In this document: piece after piece, positions 442 through 8,106 of the stretch
How positions within the stretch are numbered: position 1 is the stretch's first letter
Layout: each line of letters starts with the position of its first letter
Assembly (NCBI GenBank): GCA_903876765.1
Contig: CAIRBH010000001.1
Coordinates: forward strand, 1 to 64,000
Reading direction: 5' to 3'
DNA length: 64,000 bases
Source: an uncultured Pseudomonadota bacterium
GTDB taxonomy: Bacteria; Pseudomonadota; Gammaproteobacteria; Burkholderiales; Methylophilaceae
Position numbers and translations under genes: made by a program
Notes under the pieces: generated by a model
The model's input: only the letters and a program-made list of their open reading frames with translations
The model's database searches: none
What the model was told of the DNA's origin: nothing

Positions 442-523
442 AGTTGTCAGTGATAGAACTGTTTTTTAGGTAACGACTAAGTATATGGGGATTGGTATTG
501 CTTGGGGTCGTTATTCTGAACAA

Positions 524-568
524 AGCGAAGCATCCAGATAATCCATAGATTATTCTAAATACTTCGCT
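524..568 (-). terminator. Long hairpin just downstream of phaC
   Basis: On the minus strand the bases right after the phaC stop form a stem of about 19-20 pairs: AGCGAAG at one end pairs with CTTCGCT at the other. It has one bulged base, several G-U pairs and a four-base loop. The G-U pairs form only in the minus-strand RNA, so the structure fits the phaC transcript rather than a plus-strand one. Only a weak U-rich stretch follows, so it could be a transcript end or a 3' stabiliser. Confidence 0.45.
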
Positions 569-576
569 ATGCTTAA

Positions 577-1824
577 CTACTCTGGTTTTGTTGGTTTTTT
601 GCTAACTTCTTTTGTTGCTGCTGGTTTAGCCGCTGGTGCTGGTTTAGCCTGAACTGCTGGTTTAGCTGCCGCTGGCTGAGCAACAGGCGTTGGTTTAGCC
701 GTTGCGACAGACGCTGGTTTTTTAGGCACAGGAGCCGCTTTTACAGGCGCTGGTGCATCGCGCTGTATCAGCCATTTTGAAATGGCAGGTGCCAATTCTT
801 TTTGTGAGCGTGACCCAACAAATACGCCAATATGACCGCCTTGAAACTCGTATAAGGTTTTATCAGCAGAGCTGACTAAGTCATTTAATGGCTTGGTGGC
901 AGCGGGTGGCACTAGGTGGTCAGCTGAGGCGTAAATATTCAAAATAGGCATGGTAATTTTGCCCAAATCAACAGTTTTTCCACCAAGTTTGAGTTTACCT
1001 TTAACCAGTTTATTGGCTTGGTAACAGTCTTTTACAAATTGACGCAGACATTCACCGGCTTGGCCTGGACTATCAAAAATCCACTTTTCCATGCGTAAGA
1101 AGCTGAGTAATTTTTCTTTGTCTTCCATCACATGAAGCATATCAACATATTTTTTGATATTGAGATTAAATGGCATGAGCATGAGAAAGCCATCGTTAAG
1201 AATATTGCCTGGCACAACACCGTAGGCATCTACTAGTGCATCTACATCCATGGTTTTAGACCAGTTGAACAATAGGCCATCATTAGTTGAGAAATCAAAT
1301 GGCGCAACTAGGGTAATCAGGTTTTGCACTTTTTCCGGATGTAATGCAGCGTAAATTGCAGAAAAGGTACCACCTTGGCATACGCCCATTAGGCTGACTG
1401 TTTCGCTCTTAGCATTTTTTCTTACCGCATCTACGCAGTTATTGATATAACCGTTGATGTAGTCATCCATGTTCAGGTAGCGGTCAGCTTGCGTTGGGTA
1501 GCCCCAGTCAATAATATAAACGTCTAGGCCTAGTTCAAGCAGATTACGAATAAAGCTGCGATCTGGTTGAATGTCTAGCATATACGGGCGATTGACCAAA
1601 GCATAAACCACTAGTACTGGCACGCCGCAGGCTTTTTCTTTGGTTGGCTTGTAGTGATAAAGCTTGAGTTTATCTTCTTCGTATACTAATTGTTTAGGTG
1701 CTGTACCAACATCTACTTCGCTGATATCTGTGAGTAGTTCAGCACCTTTCATGAGTTTGCTATTAAGCTCACCCAAATGTTTCATCAAGGATTTGGCATC
1801 TAAGCTTGAAAACGGGTTATTCAT
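577..1824 (-). CDS. phaC: Class III poly(3-hydroxyalkanoate) synthase, catalytic subunit PhaC
   Basis: This 415-residue alpha/beta-hydrolase polymerises hydroxyacyl-CoA into PHA at the granule surface, together with PhaE. The nucleophile motif GVCQGG places the active Cys at residue 149. Asp at 302 (in YASADHLVPP) and His at 331 (in GGHIGVF) complete the triad; these are the positions I recall for the Allochromatium vinosum enzyme. The core ends near residue 355. The last 55-60 residues are a Pro/Ala/Lys-rich tail with repeated AAKPA-like units, not part of the usual family length. It follows phaE with 5 bases between, as the last gene of the PHA operon. The class III call is firm; the tail's role is unknown. 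Confidence 0.95.
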   Translation of the reverse strand: MNNPFSSLDAKSLMKHLGELNSKLMKGAELLTDISEVDVGTAPKQLVYEEDKLKLYHYKPTKEKACGVPVLVVYALVNRPYMLDIQPDRSFIRNLLELGLDVYIIDWGYPTQADRYLNMDDYINGYINNCVDAVRKNAKSETVSLMGVCQGGTFSAIYAALHPEKVQNLITLVAPFDFSTNDGLLFNWSKTMDVDALVDAYGVVPGNILNDGFLMLMPFNLNIKKYVDMLHVMEDKEKLLSFLRMEKWIFDSPGQAGECLRQFVKDCYQANKLVKGKLKLGGKTVDLGKITMPILNIYASADHLVPPAATKPLNDLVSSADKTLYEFQGGHIGVFVGSRSQKELAPAISKWLIQRDAPAPVKAAPVPKKPASVATAKPTPVAQPAAAKPAVQAKPAPAAKPAATKEVSKKPTKPE

Positions 1825-1829
1825 GACGG

Positions 1830-2867
1830 TTAATCCTTATTTTTTAATGCTTGAATTTGTGATTCCAGACCTTTGATTTGCTTACGCAGGTCGTAGACTA
1901 TTTTGTACACTTCATCCATTTCAGAACGACGCGCAATAGGCAGTTGTACCAACTCACTTTCTATCATTTCGTTGTATAACTTGCGCGCAGTAAAGCCTGC
2001 ATCGGTCAGTGCATTGCGTTTTTGTGAAAACGCTTTAGTTTGGAATAACTTGTAAAAAGTTTTTTCGTTGATATCTATCCATAAAGCAAAAAACTCATCG
2101 AATTTTTCGAATTTTTCACCAGCTTCTACCTTGCTAGCCAGCGCTTTGCCGACTTCTTGCATGGCTTCTTGGCCGGTAGCTTGCATCATTTGCTGATATT
2201 CAATATTGTTTGCAGCAAAGCTAGACATGGCTTTTGCGCATTTAGATAAGAGCTCCATTTTTTCACGGTCTTTGCCTACCGCAGGCGAGCTAAAAAGCTT
2301 GCCAGTGGCATTTTCAAACAGGCCGTACATGGCTTTCATTTGCACGAGCAAGGCTTCAGGTTGCAGGTCGGCATGGCTAAAATCGCCTTGCATCAATTTG
2401 CTAGACTGGGTTTTAGCTGCATCTGTCCAAGGTTTGCCCAATTGTTGATAGAGGTCGGCGTATTGCGCTGCCTGCTTTTGCAGTTGCGTCATGGCGTCTA
2501 AATCAAAATTGAATAGTTTGTCGATGACTTGCTTAATTTTGGTCGGGTCAGTCAAGTCGCTATAAGTGTTGGCGTTAATGCTGTTATCACGCATTGCATT
2601 GAGTATAGGCTGCCATAGTTCGTAAAGTTTTTGCACGGCATCATTGCCATACAGAGATTTATTAAAAATATCTTTAGTTAAATTGGCATCGGCTGCCAAG
2701 GGGAACGCCTGGTAGGCTGCTTTAGCCCACTGGGTCATTGGGTTGTCTGTTGCGATGCTGTTGTTTTGGAAATACGACTGCATTTGTAGCGCTTGGTCGC
2801 GCAATGTAGCAAAAGCTTGCTGTTGTGTTTTCATCCAGCTGTCAATGTAATCATTTGGGATTTCCAC
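1830..2867 (-). CDS. phaE: Class III PHA synthase subunit PhaE
   Basis: This 345-residue protein is the non-catalytic partner of class III PhaC. It has the usual features of the family: no hydrolase motif, a mostly helical Gln/Lys/Ala-rich body, the N-terminal DSWMKTQQQ segment, and a C-terminal coiled coil near residues 310-345 (VYDLRKQIKGLESQI). In characterised systems PhaE and PhaC form a complex that greatly raises activity. It lies directly upstream of phaC and downstream of a hairpin at 2925-2953 that may lower its transcription relative to the phasin gene. Identification rests on both the sequence pattern and the phaC pairing. Confidence 0.92.
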   Translation of the reverse strand: MEIPNDYIDSWMKTQQQAFATLRDQALQMQSYFQNNSIATDNPMTQWAKAAYQAFPLAADANLTKDIFNKSLYGNDAVQKLYELWQPILNAMRDNSINANTYSDLTDPTKIKQVIDKLFNFDLDAMTQLQKQAAQYADLYQQLGKPWTDAAKTQSSKLMQGDFSHADLQPEALLVQMKAMYGLFENATGKLFSSPAVGKDREKMELLSKCAKAMSSFAANNIEYQQMMQATGQEAMQEVGKALASKVEAGEKFEKFDEFFALWIDINEKTFYKLFQTKAFSQKRNALTDAGFTARKLYNEMIESELVQLPIARRSEMDEVYKIVYDLRKQIKGLESQIQALKNKD

Positions 2868-2916
2868 TATTATTCCTTTTCATCTCGCCTGCTAGTCTAG
2901 GCGCTTGCTATTTAGG

Positions 2917-2953
2917 TAAAACTAGCGTCAGCCGCCCCGTGGGTTGCCGACGC
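2917..2953 (-). terminator. Attenuator-like hairpin between phasin gene and phaE
   Basis: In the minus-strand RNA, GCGUCGGC pairs with GGCUGACGC (one G-U pair) and CCC pairs with GGG, separated by two mismatches. The hairpin is followed by UAGUUUUACC. It lies between the phasin stop and the phaE start, so it looks like a weak internal terminator that would leave more phasin than synthase message. Partial termination is inferred, not shown. Confidence 0.45.
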
Positions 2954-2976
2954 CTAGAAGGTTAAGCTAATTGAAT

Positions 2977-3336
2977 TTATTTAGCTTTTGCTTTAACAGG
3001 ATTAGCAATTTCAATGAAGCTTTTTAATACTTCACGACTAATTTCTAATTGTTTTTCGTAAGCGCTGATGCAATTTTCTTGCACTTTAAGCGCTTCTTCA
3101 GTTGCACTTTGCGTGTTGCTTGCAACAGTGCTGAACCAAGTGTTGAACTGATTTAGCGCTTCTTTAGTTTGTGGTGTTTCTGGTAAGCCAGGAATGCTAG
3201 TAAAAGCAGCGTGTGTTTTGCCAATAGCATCTATCCACTGTACGCGTAAATCTTTTTGAGCGCTTAGTAAATTGTTAAACACTTGTTTCTGTGTGCTAGT
3301 TAAAACGTCAAAATACTCAAGTTGTTTGTCCATCAT
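2977..3336 (-). CDS. Phasin-like PHA granule-associated protein
   Basis: This 119-residue protein has no signal peptide or membrane span. It is almost entirely amphipathic helix rich in Gln, Ala, Thr and Glu, as in phasins, which coat PHA granules. I chose the start at 3336 because AAAGGA stands six bases before its ATG; an upstream ATG at 3351 would place that site inside the gene. The C-terminal motif EKQLEISREVLKSF is shared with the next gene upstream (3364-3807). Position in the phaEC operon supports the role. It is not a close match to the classic PhaP family that I can name. Confidence 0.75.
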   Translation of the reverse strand: MMDKQLEYFDVLTSTQKQVFNNLLSAQKDLRVQWIDAIGKTHAAFTSIPGLPETPQTKEALNQFNTWFSTVASNTQSATEEALKVQENCISAYEKQLEISREVLKSFIEIANPVKAKAK

Positions 3337-3363
3337 TTTATTTCCTTTCATCGTTAAAAAAAA

Positions 3364-3807
3364 TTATTCACCTTTAGCTGGCGAAGATTGCTTTAGTACA
3401 TCAAAAAAACTCTTGGTCACTTCACGGCTCATTTCCAGTTGTTTATCGACAACCTCTTGCCATGCTTGTTGGGCTTTTGCGCTATTTTCGGCGGCAAAGC
3501 GTTGTTGTAAATCGCGCAGCGTATCGGCTAACAATTGGTACTCAGCTTTTAGTGTGGCGTAATCTTTTAGCAAGCTGTCATATTTAGCTTGTGGCACATA
3601 ACCTAGCGATTGATAAAAATCTGCCATGCGCTCCATCATTTTATCTACACCAGGAAAGGCTTGGCTTTCAGGAGCCAGCCCCCAAAACTTACTAGCGGCT
3701 TCCATGCCTTGTTGCTGGGCGATTTTAAAATATTCATTCGCACCCTGCTTGAACATAGGGTTAGAGAACATTTCCATCATCATTTTTATTTGCGGTTCAG
3801 TCATCAT
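3364..3807 (-). CDS. Phasin-like / PHA synthase-associated small protein
   Basis: This 147-residue protein has a Met-rich start (PQIKMMMEMFSNPMF), a helical middle with a probable coiled coil (residues about 80-115), and a C-terminal motif DKQLEMSREVTKSFFDV nearly identical to that of the phasin-like protein downstream. No catalytic motif is visible. The ATG at 3807 is preceded by AAGGAAG at a suitable distance. I infer that it binds PHA granules or the PhaEC complex through the shared C-terminal helix. It could equally be an accessory PhaE-like subunit. I do not recognise a named family. Confidence 0.65.
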   Translation of the reverse strand: MMTEPQIKMMMEMFSNPMFKQGANEYFKIAQQQGMEAASKFWGLAPESQAFPGVDKMMERMADFYQSLGYVPQAKYDSLLKDYATLKAEYQLLADTLRDLQQRFAAENSAKAQQAWQEVVDKQLEMSREVTKSFFDVLKQSSPAKGE

Positions 3808-3848
3808 GTTGTAGGCTTCCTTATATGTGTAGCGGTGTCATTTGGCGG

Positions 3849-4181
3849 TTAATTAGACGTTGAGCTATTTGCGCTAGCTTCATCGTTCGCAGTTGGCGTG
3901 ATAGTAGGCGCCCATATTTGCCAAGGGTTACTCATCATCTTAAACATGTCAGCATCTTTCATCGCGCCAAATTGTTTTAGCCAAGAACCCAACATACCAA
4001 AGTAATTTTTTAAATCCCAACCTGAGGTCAGCATAAATGGCAATGAGCGGTTTAGATCGCGAATATAAGAGCGTACTACGTAAGCCACGTTAATGTCTGG
4101 GTCACCGAAAGCTTCTAGGTGCGCTTTTAGTTTTTCGTATTCTTCTTCATCTAATCTAATGGTGATAGGTTTAAGTGCCAT
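3849..4181 (-). CDS. Ribbon-helix-helix protein with hydrophobic tail; candidate PHA operon regulator
   Basis: Residues 4-50 of this 110-residue protein (ITIRLDEEEYEKLKAH, then VAYVVRSYIRDLNRS) fit a ribbon-helix-helix DNA-binding fold: a short beta strand with alternating residues followed by two helices. The second half is unlike a plain RHH repressor: an aromatic and Met-rich stretch (WDLKNYFGMLGSWLKQF, MFKMMSNPWQIWAP) ends in a polar Ser/Asn/Thr tail. It is the first gene of the PHA operon, with a strong inverted repeat 32 bases ahead of its start. I infer an autoregulator that senses polymer or granules through the hydrophobic part, similar in logic, though not in fold, to PhaR. The RHH call is moderate; the sensing role is speculation. 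Confidence 0.6.
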   Translation of the reverse strand: MALKPITIRLDEEEYEKLKAHLEAFGDPDINVAYVVRSYIRDLNRSLPFMLTSGWDLKNYFGMLGSWLKQFGAMKDADMFKMMSNPWQIWAPTITPTANDEASANSSTSN

Positions 4182-4212
4182 GATTGCCCCAATTAATATT
4201 TCTAAAGTAAGT

Positions 4213-4245
4213 GTATTGTATTACATAAGTAATACATGTCAATAC
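4213..4245. promoter_or_regulatory. Nested inverted repeat, operator candidate for the PHA operon
   Basis: GTATTAC-ATAA-GTAATAC (4218-4235) is a perfect 7-bp inverted repeat with a 4-base spacer. It lies inside a second pair, GTATTG (4213-4218) and CAATAC (4240-4245). It stands 32 bases upstream of the ribbon-helix-helix gene start on the minus strand. RHH dimers commonly bind such repeated half-sites, so autoregulation is likely. Confidence 0.55.
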
Positions 4246-4340
4246 TAAATGGCAATATTTTTAGAATATTTTGGTTAATTTGTGATTTTATTTACTTATT
4301 TGAATATTTTTATCTATTAATTTTATTGATAAGGCTATGC

Positions 4341-4406
4341 CAGTCTAGACTGATAAGTATTGTTAATTGTGCCAATATACTATATCTTATGTCTTATATA
4401 AGACAT
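4341..4406. promoter_or_regulatory. Palindromes upstream of the acetyltransferase gene
   Basis: An 18-bp perfect palindrome, ATGTCTTAT followed by ATAAGACAT, lies at 4389-4406, about 88 bases ahead of the plus-strand gene at 4495. A shorter 12-bp palindrome, CAGTCTAGACTG, lies at 4341-4352. The surrounding 4182-4494 gap is very AT-rich and holds no gene. The longer palindrome is a plausible operator for the acetyltransferase-deacetylase pair; the short one may be chance. Confidence 0.4.
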
Positions 4407-4494
4407 TAATAAAAAATTCATTAAATATCCATACTTGTTATAGCCGTATTAGCATAGTATAGAAGTCATCATTTAAACAAAGATCAGAAAAATC

Positions 4495-7173
4495 ATGAGC
4501 CAGCACCGCCTTAAGTCTTTATTTGCACCCAGTTCTGTAGCGGTATTTGGCGCAAGCGACCACGTTGATTCGGTAGGGCAGATTGTTTTTCAAAATATGC
4601 TGCAAAGCGGCTACAAAGGCGCGCTTTACCCTATTAATGCTAGTCACACTGAGGTGCAAGGTTGCAAAGCGTATAGCGACATTGGGCAAATTACTGGGCT
4701 AGTAGAATTAGCCGTGATTGCAACACCAGCCGATACGGTGCCAGCGATTATTGCAGCCTGTGGTCAGCATCACGTGAAGGCAGCGGTGATTATTACGGCA
4801 GGCTTTGGCGAAGCAGGTGAGGCAGGTAAAGCCTTGGAATTGCAGGTATTAAAAATCGCTCAGCGTTATGGTATTCGGCTGATAGGGCCTAATTGCCTAG
4901 GCGTTATGCGCCCTGACATCGGTCTGAACGCGACCTTCAACAATGGCAGTGCCATCGCCGGTAATATTGCTTTTATCTCGCAATCTGGCGCTTTGTGTAC
5001 GGCAATTTTAGATTGGGCTAAATCTAACGATGTGGGTTTTTCTAGCGTGATATCTATGGGCGCTGCCTTGGATGTAGATTTTGGCGAAATACTCGACTAT
5101 TTAATCTCAGATAGCAAAACACAAAGCATATTGCTTTATATAGAAGGCATACACAACGCACGCAGTTTTATGAGTGCCATACGGGCTGCGGCGCGTATTA
5201 AACCAGTGGTGTTGATTAAAGTAGGTCGCCATGCCGCCGCCTCTAAGGCTGCTGTATCGCATACTGCGGCCATAGTCGGCTCGGATGATGCTTTTGATGC
5301 GGCATTGCGTCGAGCTGGAGTGGTGCGGGTGAGAACTGTAACGCAGCTATTTTCAGCTGCTAAAGTGCTGTCTTACGGCTTTGTGCCTACGGGTAAGCGC
5401 TTGGCTATTGTCACCAATGGCGGCGGGCCAGGCGTTATGGCAACAGATTGTGCCATTGATTTGGGCTTGGTGATGGCAACTTTGTCTAGCACTACTATAG
5501 ATAAATTAAATCAGGTTTTGCCTGCCAATTGGTCGCATGGCAACCCAGTAGACATAATTGGTGATGCACAGGTAGATCGTTATGAGCATGCGGTAAAAGC
5601 TTGCCTAGAAGACCTCAACGTAGATGGCGTATTGACCATATTAACGCCGCAAGCCATGACTAAGCCATTGGCCGTGGCTGAGGCGGTGATTGCGCTTTCT
5701 AATCAATACAACAAACCTTTGCTGACCTCTTGGATGGGTGGAGAGCAAGTTGAGGCGTCTCGAACATTATTCAATCATGCTAAAAAACCTAGCTTTAGCA
5801 CGCCAGAATCAGCGGTAGAGGTTTTTTCTTACCTGTCTGCTTATCATGAAAATCAACAACTTTTAATGCAAGTGCCAGGTTCTTTATCGCATCATATTGA
5901 GCCTGATGTGGAAAGTGCACGCATGATTATTGAAGGGGCCATGTTAGAAAAGCGCAAAGTGTTAGGTGAGATGGAATCAAAAGCACTCTTGGCGGCGTTT
6001 CATATCCCTGTGGCGCAAACCATGGTGGCGCGCTCACCTAATGAGGCCTTGTTGATCGCTCAGCAATTAGGCTTTCCTGTCGCTATGAAAATTAACTCAC
6101 CTGACATTACACATAAATCAGATGTCGGTGGCGTGAAGCTCAACTTAGTGAATGCGCTAGAAGTGCGGGCGGCCTATCATGAAATTATCGAGAGCGTGAA
6201 GCTCAATAGGCCTAATGCGCATATCAACGGCATGTCTATACAGCCTATGATAGTCAAACCCAATGGTCGTGAGCTCATGGTGGGGGTTGTCAATGATGAG
6301 GTATTTGGCCCCATCATTACTTTTGGTGCAGGGGGAACCACGGTAGAGATTGTGGCCGATAAGTCAGTTGCACTGCCGCCATTGAATACATTTTTGGTTA
6401 AAGACCTCATTAAAAGAACGCAGATAGTTAAAATGTTAGGCGCTTTTCGCAATATGCCACCCGCCAATATAGAGGCTTTAGAAGCGGTTTTGCTAAGAGT
6501 GTCAGAAATGGTATGTGAATTGCCGATGCTGATGGAGATGGATATTAACCCATTAATATTAGATGAAAATGGTGTATTAGCCGCAGATGCCAGAATAGTG
6601 TTGGGTACGCGCGCCCCTAGCGCTGACCCTTATTCACACATGGCAATTTATCCCTATCCATCGCATTTGGTCAGCAATTGGCAGATGGCAGACGGCTCTA
6701 ATGTGGTGATACGCCCCATACAACCTGAGGATGTTTGGTTGGTTAAAGAGTTTGTCAGAAATCTATCTGATGAATCACGCTATTTTAGATTTATGAAAAG
6801 CGTAGAAGAATTGAGCGTATTAACCTTAGTACGCTTTACACAAATTGACTATAGTCGAGAAATGGCGCTGATAGCCGTCAATGAAGAACAAGACAAAGAT
6901 GTAGAATTAGGCGTTGCTCGCTATGCCATCAACCCAGATGGTGAAAGTTGTGAATTTGCCCTCGTTGTGGCTGACACCATGCGCGGCACTGGGCTTGGCC
7001 AGAAGCTTATGATAGCTTTGATGGACATTGCGCGGTCTAAGGGTTTGAAAAGCATAGAAGGTGAAGTGCTAAAAAATAACGCTAATATGTTGAAATTGAT
7101 GAAGCGTATCGGCTTTTCTGTAAGCACTAGCGCAGAAGACAGCAATATCAAAAACGTACATAAAGCACTATAA
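4495..7173 (+). CDS. Pat/PatZ-type protein: ADP-forming acyl-CoA synthetase-like domains plus GNAT acetyltransferase
   Basis: This 892-residue protein has, in order, a CoA-binding domain (about 5-130), succinyl-CoA-ligase-like domains (about 150-450, with SHTAAIVGSDDAF holding the His that is phosphorylated in ADP-forming acyl-CoA synthetases), an ATP-grasp domain (about 490-700, motif KINSPDITHKSDVGG), and a C-terminal GNAT domain (about 720-885, acetyl-CoA loop near MRGTGLGQKL). This is the architecture of PatZ/YfiQ lysine acetyltransferases, which acetylate and silence acyl-CoA synthetases. In PatZ itself the catalytic His is lost; here it appears present, so residual ligase activity is possible. 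The next gene, 9 bases on, is a deacetylase, which suggests a reversible protein-acetylation pair. Confidence 0.85.
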   Translation: MSQHRLKSLFAPSSVAVFGASDHVDSVGQIVFQNMLQSGYKGALYPINASHTEVQGCKAYSDIGQITGLVELAVIATPADTVPAIIAACGQHHVKAAVIITAGFGEAGEAGKALELQVLKIAQRYGIRLIGPNCLGVMRPDIGLNATFNNGSAIAGNIAFISQSGALCTAILDWAKSNDVGFSSVISMGAALDVDFGEILDYLISDSKTQSILLYIEGIHNARSFMSAIRAAARIKPVVLIKVGRHAAASKAAVSHTAAIVGSDDAFDAALRRAGVVRVRTVTQLFSAAKVLSYGFVPTGKRLAIVTNGGGPGVMATDCAIDLGLVMATLSSTTIDKLNQVLPANWSHGNPVDIIGDAQVDRYEHAVKACLEDLNVDGVLTILTPQAMTKPLAVAEAVIALSNQYNKPLLTSWMGGEQVEASRTLFNHAKKPSFSTPESAVEVFSYLSAYHENQQLLMQVPGSLSHHIEPDVESARMIIEGAMLEKRKVLGEMESKALLAAFHIPVAQTMVARSPNEALLIAQQLGFPVAMKINSPDITHKSDVGGVKLNLVNALEVRAAYHEIIESVKLNRPNAHINGMSIQPMIVKPNGRELMVGVVNDEVFGPIITFGAGGTTVEIVADKSVALPPLNTFLVKDLIKRTQIVKMLGAFRNMPPANIEALEAVLLRVSEMVCELPMLMEMDINPLILDENGVLAADARIVLGTRAPSADPYSHMAIYPYPSHLVSNWQMADGSNVVIRPIQPEDVWLVKEFVRNLSDESRYFRFMKSVEELSVLTLVRFTQIDYSREMALIAVNEEQDKDVELGVARYAINPDGESCEFALVVADTMRGTGLGQKLMIALMDIARSKGLKSIEGEVLKNNANMLKLMKRIGFSVSTSAEDSNIKNVHKAL

Positions 7174-7182
7174 ACTCAAGAT

Positions 7183-8106
7183 ATGCATACTGCTTATATT
7201 TCACATTTAGAGTTTCTTAAGCACGACATGGGGCCAGATCACCCTGAGTGTCCTGCGCGTATTTATGCGGTCAAAGATCAACTCATTGCCTCTGGGCTAT
7301 TTGATCATCTAAGCCAGCACGATGCGCCTAAGGCTAATCGGCAACAGCTTGCTCGCGTGCATACTGCTGATTATATAGACTGGGTATTTAAGCAATCGCC
7401 AGATGCAGGCCTAATAGACCTAGACGGTGATACTTATATGAATCCCTATACTTTAGATGCCGCTTTGTATGCAGCAGGTGCCGTAGTACATGCGGTTGAT
7501 CTGGTGATGGAGAGCAATACCAATAACGCTTTTTGTAATATTCGCCCGCCAGGGCACCACGCAAAAAGAGCGGGCGCATCTGGTTTTTGTATTTTTAATA
7601 ATATCGCCGTGGCCGCCGCTCATGCGCTGGATTACTACGGTTTAGCCCGCGTTGCCATTGTAGATTTTGATGTTCATCATGGCGACGGCACTGAAGACAT
7701 TTTTCATGATGACCCAAGAGTGATGATGTGTTCCACCTTTCAACATCCTTATTACCCCTATTGCGGGGCTGATTCTGGCAACGAGCATATTATCAATGTG
7801 CCTCTGGCCTCTGGCAGTTCTGGCGAACAGTTTCGTGATGCGGTCGCTACACAATGGCTGCCTGCCTTAGAGCACTTTTCGCCAGAAATGATATTTATCT
7901 CAGCAGGGTTTGATGCGCATTGGGAAGACGATATGAGCGGCCTAGCTTTGCGAGAAAACGACTATTTTTGGGTGACTGAAATACTCAAAGATGTGGCCAA
8001 ACGCCATGCAAAAGGTCGTATAGTCTCGGCGCTAGAAGGCGGCTATGCTTTGCATGCCTTGGGGCGCAGTGTGATGGCGCATGTTAAAAGCTTAAGTGAG
8101 CTTTAA
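7183..8106 (+). CDS. Histone deacetylase-family protein (AcuC/HDAC class II-like)
   Basis: This 307-residue enzyme has all the hallmarks of the arginase/deacetylase fold: RPPGHHAKR with the paired catalytic His residues, the zinc ligands in DFDVHHGDGT and AGFDAHWEDD, and the closing LEGGYAL loop with the HDAC Gly-Gly-Tyr. Bacterial members remove acetyl groups from lysine (for example AcuC acting on acetyl-CoA synthetase) or from polyamines. It starts 9 bases after the Pat-like gene and is almost certainly cotranscribed with it, which favours protein deacetylation. A polyamine or acetoin-related substrate remains possible. Length is usual for the family. Confidence 0.88.
   Translation: MHTAYISHLEFLKHDMGPDHPECPARIYAVKDQLIASGLFDHLSQHDAPKANRQQLARVHTADYIDWVFKQSPDAGLIDLDGDTYMNPYTLDAALYAAGAVVHAVDLVMESNTNNAFCNIRPPGHHAKRAGASGFCIFNNIAVAAAHALDYYGLARVAIVDFDVHHGDGTEDIFHDDPRVMMCSTFQHPYYPYCGADSGNEHIINVPLASGSSGEQFRDAVATQWLPALEHFSPEMIFISAGFDAHWEDDMSGLALRENDYFWVTEILKDVAKRHAKGRIVSALEGGYALHALGRSVMAHVKSLSEL

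Follow-up and report, generated by a model that had tools for sequence, protein, structure and literature searches.

The question raised by this locus is what a small, putatively DNA-binding protein does at the head of an operon for PHA storage. In the window (the whole stretch of DNA that was analysed, 64,000 nucleotides of an uncultured Methylophilaceae bacterium), five genes follow one another on the minus strand in the order RHH-phasinA-phasinB-phaE-phaC: (i) the ribbon-helix-helix (RHH) regulator gene (3849-4181; 110 amino acids, ATG start), (ii) a gene for a phasinA-like granule protein (3364-3807), whose match to PhaP_Bmeg (E 0.0037) is below the Pfam cut-off, (iii) a gene for a phasinB-like protein (2977-3351), (iv) phaE, the class III PHA synthase subunit (1830-2867; Pfam PHA_synth_III_E, 2.6e-26), and (v) phaC, the class III PHA synthase (577-1824; TIGR01836, 3e-150). 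The regulator had been placed at the head of a PHA operon by the first-pass annotation, and the four genes downstream bear this out. The reading argued for here, with a probability of about 0.6, is that the protein would be an autorepressor dedicated to the class III PHA operon, binding its own promoter, repressing the genes behind it and coupling this repression to the polymer through its tail.

Known families recognise phasinA and phasinB of the window weakly or not at all. These two small phasin-like families (2977-3351 and 3364-3807) are kept in class III PHA clusters, and neither has a Pfam or NCBIfam match above cut-off. A terminator-like hairpin is located within the operon at the end of phasinA (3367-3385); the frequency of such matches here does not exceed chance. 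The divergent gene (4495-7173) encodes a fusion of a CoA-ligase (ATP-grasp) with a GNAT domain and is followed by a gene of the histone-deacetylase family (7183-8106), a pair that also adjoins the regulator in the homologous loci L001 and L003. Ahead of the divergent gene is a perfect 18-bp palindrome, ATGTCTTATATAAGACAT (4389-4406), with near-copies in the same intergenic stretch of all four relatives examined (L001-L004). It is probably the operator of a different regulator.

The N-terminus of the regulator is likely, though not proven, to be an RHH domain (residues 1-48; 4038-4181, minus strand). The layout comprises a strand at about residues 4-10, placed by pattern, and helices at about 12-25 and 32-46, taken from a low-confidence model. 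Pfam RHH_1 matches the window protein at residues 6-21 with E 0.27 and 11.7 bits, against a cut-off of 20.5. Among 27 family members, RHH_1 is matched in 4 at E<1 and NikA-like, also an RHH family, in 3; unrelated Pfam families match equally often in the same members (AID in 4, SPP1_GP23-1 in 3). A stronger signal comes from an HMM-HMM comparison of regulator residues 1-50 with seven RHH domains, whose source was a set of nine RHH_1 loci in related genomes. The alignment spans residues 2-41 with a three-residue insertion, a score of 23.5 and a probability of 61%. None of 200 column-shuffled controls reached this score (maximum 16.7), the reversed alignment scores 6.9, and for the tail this comparison yields a probability of 0.2%. 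The RHH domain originally proposed at residues 4-50 is thus probable, with profile support for residues 2-41 and a weak Pfam match. A PDB profile search with the regulator returned no match to E 10. AlphaFold2 gave monomer models of poor quality (pLDDT 55.6 for the full length and 54.6 for residues 1-90; pTM 0.25). At this low confidence the full-length model has helices at residues 12-25, 28-51, 57-72 and 76-83, the 90-residue model has them at 12-25, 32-46, 49-52, 57-73 and 76-84, and there are no strands in either.

The DNA ahead of the gene has promoter elements interleaved with repeated boxes. Read on the gene strand, the layout is TTGACA-T-GTATTAC-TTAT-GTAATAC-AATA-CACTTAC. On the minus strand, the -35 element TTGACA (4237-4242) is followed by operator box 1, GTATTAC (4229-4235), and by operator box 2, GTAATAC (4218-4224), which overlaps the -10 element TACAAT (4215-4220); operator box 3, CACTTAC (4207-4213), is 11 bp further on and covers the probable +1. 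The GGGG at 4187-4190 is, judged by sequence, the probable ribosome-binding site. The TTGACA/TACAAT pair, with 16 bp between its elements, is the best promoter match within 500-4600, agreeing at 11 of 12 positions; promoter-like matches in that interval show no excess (5 against a shuffle mean of 9.3). A nested inverted repeat had been described at 4213-4245. Its inner repeat (4217-4224/4229-4236) is perfect, but the outer arms, GTATTG (4213-4218) and CAATAC (4240-4245), are centred elsewhere than the inner dyad and coincide with the -10 edge and box 3 (4213-4218) and with the -35 element (4240-4245). On sequence grounds, the element would be better described as a box array, with one near-palindromic box to each helical turn, than as a single nested dyad.

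This array recurs ahead of the homologues. A scan of up to 200 bp ahead of the starts of the window gene and its 30 homologues, 31 in all, found GTAWTAC-n4-GTAWTAC with at most two mismatches in 28 upstreams, the exceptions being L016 (3 mismatches), L025 (4) and L149 (5). At shuffle p<=0.02 the operator is matched in 29 of the 31, and in all 28 PHA-type members (the window, 25 phasinA-linked loci, L022 and L039), 27 of which are within two mismatches. The boxes are present in one of three integrase-linked paralogues (L024; not L025 or L149). When upstreams were registered on the first two boxes, with the third left out of the registration, 18 of 27 had the TAC of a third box 11 bp beyond them, compared with 42 of 4159 background positions (1.0%). 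Where an upstream has TA at 26-27, C comes next in 18 of 20 cases, which exceeds what a start-site TA would explain. Part of the conservation of boxes 2 and 3 may be that of the -10 element and the start site. Extra boxes at the same 11-bp step are visible by eye in some Nitrospirota members (L016, L021, L022, L023). We infer that each box is occupied by one RHH dimer. The protein is very probably a sequence-specific autorepressor of the pha operon.

The 30 homologues besides the window comprise 25 from genome contigs and one from the window's family; a Nitrospirota sample and a class-wide search around G569 contributed two each. Going by record titles, their lineages are Methylotenera, Sulfuritalea, Gallionellaceae, other Nitrosomonadales, Methylococcaceae, Methylumidiphilus and Nitrospirota. 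In 25 of the 30 loci the next recognised gene is phasinA (L001-L021, L023, L038, L040, L150), so that homologues do not occur mostly away from PHA genes. Only two pieces of phasinA are seen in L011, and in L021 the gene begins some 520 bases on. The phaC gene is found downstream in 21 of these 25 loci, and the contig ends first in the other four (L007, L010, L011, L014). In L015 and L023 the gene run extends to two more genes, which by eye are reductase-like and thiolase-like. In L022 and L039 the regulator is followed by a different small ORF, and phaEC is at another place in the genome; a phasin-like appearance of this ORF, noted by eye, found no confirmation.

Across genomes, the regulator accompanies the synthase. 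In the window's family it is present in 6 of 187 genomes and class III phaC in the same six (hypergeometric p 1.8e-11, uncorrected for relatedness). In the Nitrospirota sample (the phylum of G561, named by record title; 295 genomes), all five genomes with the regulator are among the 18 with class III phaC (hypergeometric p 4.8e-7, likewise uncorrected for relatedness). The regulator is not obligatory for class III phaC, since 13 of those 18 genomes are without it. Thirteen Nitrospirota phaE-phaC clusters (L104-L112, L114-L117) have no RHH gene; phasinA is present in 11 of them, and the operator is absent upstream of these 11. Over 18 loci, the distances between RHH sequences and those between their neighbours are weakly and positively correlated (Spearman 0.32-0.37, Mantel p 0.001-0.002). 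The family is rare: when genomes were sampled evenly from the class of the window, the regulator was found in its own genome only (1/369). The plasmids and viral contigs searched contained no relatives.

In three further loci, L024 (539-1816), L025 (6001-7641) and L149 (1095-2735), a paralogue of the regulator precedes a tyrosine integrase, once with an excisionase-like ORF between; these paralogues are a candidate subfamily of mobile-element regulators. Their integrases and excisionase-like ORF are what would favour regarding the window protein as an ordinary mobile-element RHH protein, captured beside PHA genes and without a PHA function. This is hardly credible given the same position and operator across lineages, the co-occurrence with phaC, and the operators at two remote phasin genes.

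Those two remote operators emerged from a search of whole genomes. The window's own genome (90% complete) has a single perfect GTAWTACn4GTAWTAC site, none with one mismatch and 20 with two; the last number is within chance, as the reversed-pattern control gives 48 places against 21 in all. In 21 other genomes, 38 sites with at most one mismatch compare with 33 for the reversed pattern, so most of them are chance matches. Seven of the 38 are perfect: five are regulator promoters from which the motif was drawn, and two are new (G844:C39 and G558:C515). Ten of the 38 are regulator promoters, and two of the remaining 28 precede a phasin. The perfect site G558:C515 is about 70 bp ahead of a stand-alone phasinB-family gene (profile E 9.7e-36), and the site G559:C321, with one mismatch, is ahead of a stand-alone phasin (profile E 3.8e-27); both have the full layout of TTGACA, two boxes and CATACTTTA (CATAC box). 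The site in G844:C39 (L095 1501-1572) belongs to a second copy of the regulator promoter, with the start ATGGCACTGAAACCCAT, which runs off the contig and is either a duplicate or an assembly variant.

Stand-alone phasin genes number four in 20 genomes (three phasinB-type, one phasinA-type), with the operator at two of them and absent before the other two, G564:C171 and G566:C357. None of 12 Nitrospirota-cluster phasinA genes without an adjacent regulator has an operator within 268-300 bp (best 4-6 mismatches). In G794 the regulator is on another contig than the PHA cluster and carries its own operator there; in G794 and G566, where the regulator is apart from phaEC, no operator is found at the phaEC cluster.

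A DNA-binding domain joined to a hydrophobic tail could also serve as a tether between granule and DNA, placing or segregating granules with regulation as a secondary matter. PhaM and PhaF are models for such a role: PhaM binds DNA, has phasin-like properties and links the granule to the nucleoid (PMC9049629). The regulator has a single perfect, specific site in its own genome, in the core of a promoter, in contrast with general DNA binding, and a tether is therefore very improbable.

The tail consists of a helix at residues 57-72 (LKNYFGMLGSWLKQFG; 3966-4013, minus strand), partly kept in the integrase-linked paralogues, a second segment at residues 73-91 (AMKDADMFKMMSNPWQIWA; 3909-3965, minus strand), missing in those three paralogues, and a polar, unconserved C-terminus at residues 92-110 (3852-3908, minus strand). 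Mean pairwise identity among 25 aligned members (L024 and L025 left out) is 0.84-0.87 for residues 1-48, 0.67 for 49-56, 0.83 for 57-72, 0.58 for 73-91 and 0.14 for 92-110, so that helix 57-72 is conserved about as well as the RHH domain. The richness in Trp, Phe and Met first remarked on is real, residues 49-91 of the window protein having 6 Met, 4 Trp and 4 Phe among 43. The conservation pattern suggests more than mere greasiness, as a merely greasy tail would not be so conserved. The motif NPW is found within residues 73-91 in 23 of 28 PHA-type members; it is replaced by another PW in L010 and L019, and by WW in L021, L022 and L039. The description of the tail as phasin-like is not supported as a statement of homology: hhalign comparison with the operon's own phasins and PhaE gave probabilities of 1.4, 0.1 and 0.1%, and no phasin family in Pfam matched the regulator to E 1.

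The division of the tail into two parts follows from the integrase-linked paralogues, which share 48-51% of residues 1-70 or 71 with the window protein and retain N59 and G65, yet end differently. Part of helix 57-72 need not concern PHA, as it is kept in these paralogues, which have no PHA genes beside them; the helix is perhaps a general part, possibly holding dimers together on the DNA. Residues 73-91 would, on the basis of the three paralogues, be the PHA-specific part, and are a candidate PHA-specific sensor or contact. The shared part of the helix, together with a one-turn box spacing that calls for dimer-dimer contacts, is what would be expected of a plain autorepressor, in which the tail merely joins RHH dimers cooperatively on the 11-bp boxes, senses nothing, and keeps the levels of regulator and phasins constant. 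Against this stand residues 73-91, which are absent from the three integrase-linked paralogues and yet 0.58 identical among 25 other members, and a storage operon would presumably need a signal; we consider a plain autorepressor unlikely.

If there is a signal, it could in principle be a small metabolite such as acetyl-CoA or 3-hydroxybutyryl-CoA, bound by the tail in place of the granule. The conserved aromatic tail and the metabolic nature of the operon are compatible with this, and CdbA is an RHH protein that binds a small-molecule ligand, c-di-GMP (PMC7156744). The position of the regulator before the phasins and the operators at remote phasin genes point instead to control of the granule coat, and the regulator matches no ligand-binding family in Pfam or NCBIfam, which makes a metabolite sensor quite unlikely. 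We lean slightly towards a tail that senses the granule, the polymer or a granule protein.

That a storage operon opens with a repressor and two coat proteins suggests the logic of PhaR, and the dedicated, polymer-responsive autorepressor favoured here would work as follows. The N-terminal RHH domains would occupy the boxes at 4207-4235 as adjacent dimers, with one dimer for each turn of the helix. Since the boxes take up the whole promoter between the end of the -35 element and about +1, the bound protein would exclude RNA polymerase, and repression would silence the regulator's own gene, both phasins and phaEC. As granules form, the tail (residues 57-72 and 73-91) would be attracted either to the granule or to a granule-bound phasin or synthase. 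This capture would release the DNA, and granule-coat protein would be made to match the granule surface. Once the surface is covered, the repressor would go back to the DNA.

Storage-granule repressors are known on unrelated folds and are often sited with a phasin gene. If one were also built on the RHH fold, the convergent evolution of a switch that senses a surface could be tested directly, and the tail is short enough to be cut, swapped or grafted. For the class III PHA operons found in methanotrophs, methylotrophs and Nitrospirota, the locus also supplies a candidate regulator together with a defined operator. A tentative proposal, to which we give rather less than even odds, is that granule sensing by a PHA repressor evolved independently once more, on yet another DNA-binding fold. 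The RHH regulator would then be related to mobile-element regulators with integrase and excisionase neighbours, carry the PHA-specific residues 73-91, act on an operator of 11-bp boxes, and have spread along with class III PHA cassettes in Nitrospirota, Methylococcaceae and Nitrosomonadales.

Several known repressors provide a comparison. PhaQ has a PadR-type fold, PhaR of Cupriavidus necator belongs to the PHB_acc families, and Arc, MetJ and CopG are RHH repressors with tandem operators. The window regulator has no PadR match (Pfam, NCBIfam) and no AbrB match (Pfam, to E 1); PHB_acc is matched neither in the regulator (Pfam, to E 1) nor in its own genome. With Arc, MetJ and CopG it shares a small, here probable, N-terminal strand-helix-helix domain and an operator of repeated short boxes (here by sequence conservation); unlike them, it has a conserved aromatic tail of some 43 residues and is found in the context of a PHA operon.

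The first-pass annotation had proposed a PhaR-like switch built on another fold. Its logic has precedents in PhaQ and in haloarchaeal PhaR, but the RHH fold was not found described for it in the texts and excerpts covered. The literature searched, which comprised papers outside subscription, contained no RHH regulator tied to PHA genes; in the relevant excerpts of PMC9605863, RHH and PHA are mentioned in unrelated connections.

The PhaR of Haloferax mediterranei has an AbrB-like domain and is encoded in a phaRP operon, whose promoter contains four tandem repeats (PMC9049629), and haloarchaea have a class III PHA synthase (PMC13038957). As is proposed for the window regulator, this PhaR is an autoregulated repressor that is co-transcribed with a phasin and has tandem repeats in its promoter (PMC9049629); its AbrB-like domain is C-terminal, whereas the probable RHH domain here is N-terminal. 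PhaQ of Bacillus megaterium is a different protein, similar to what is proposed here in being a PHA-responsive autorepressor whose gene is upstream of phaP and co-transcribed with it (PMC9049629). PhaR of Cupriavidus necator represses phaP and leaves the DNA for the PHB granule, although phaP and phaR are under separate promoters there; in its cycle, the repressor leaves the DNA for a fresh granule, phasins are made, and it returns when the granule is covered (PMC9049629). Judged by its sequence, then, the regulator of the window is outside all PHA-regulator families tested, though it would work like a known kind.
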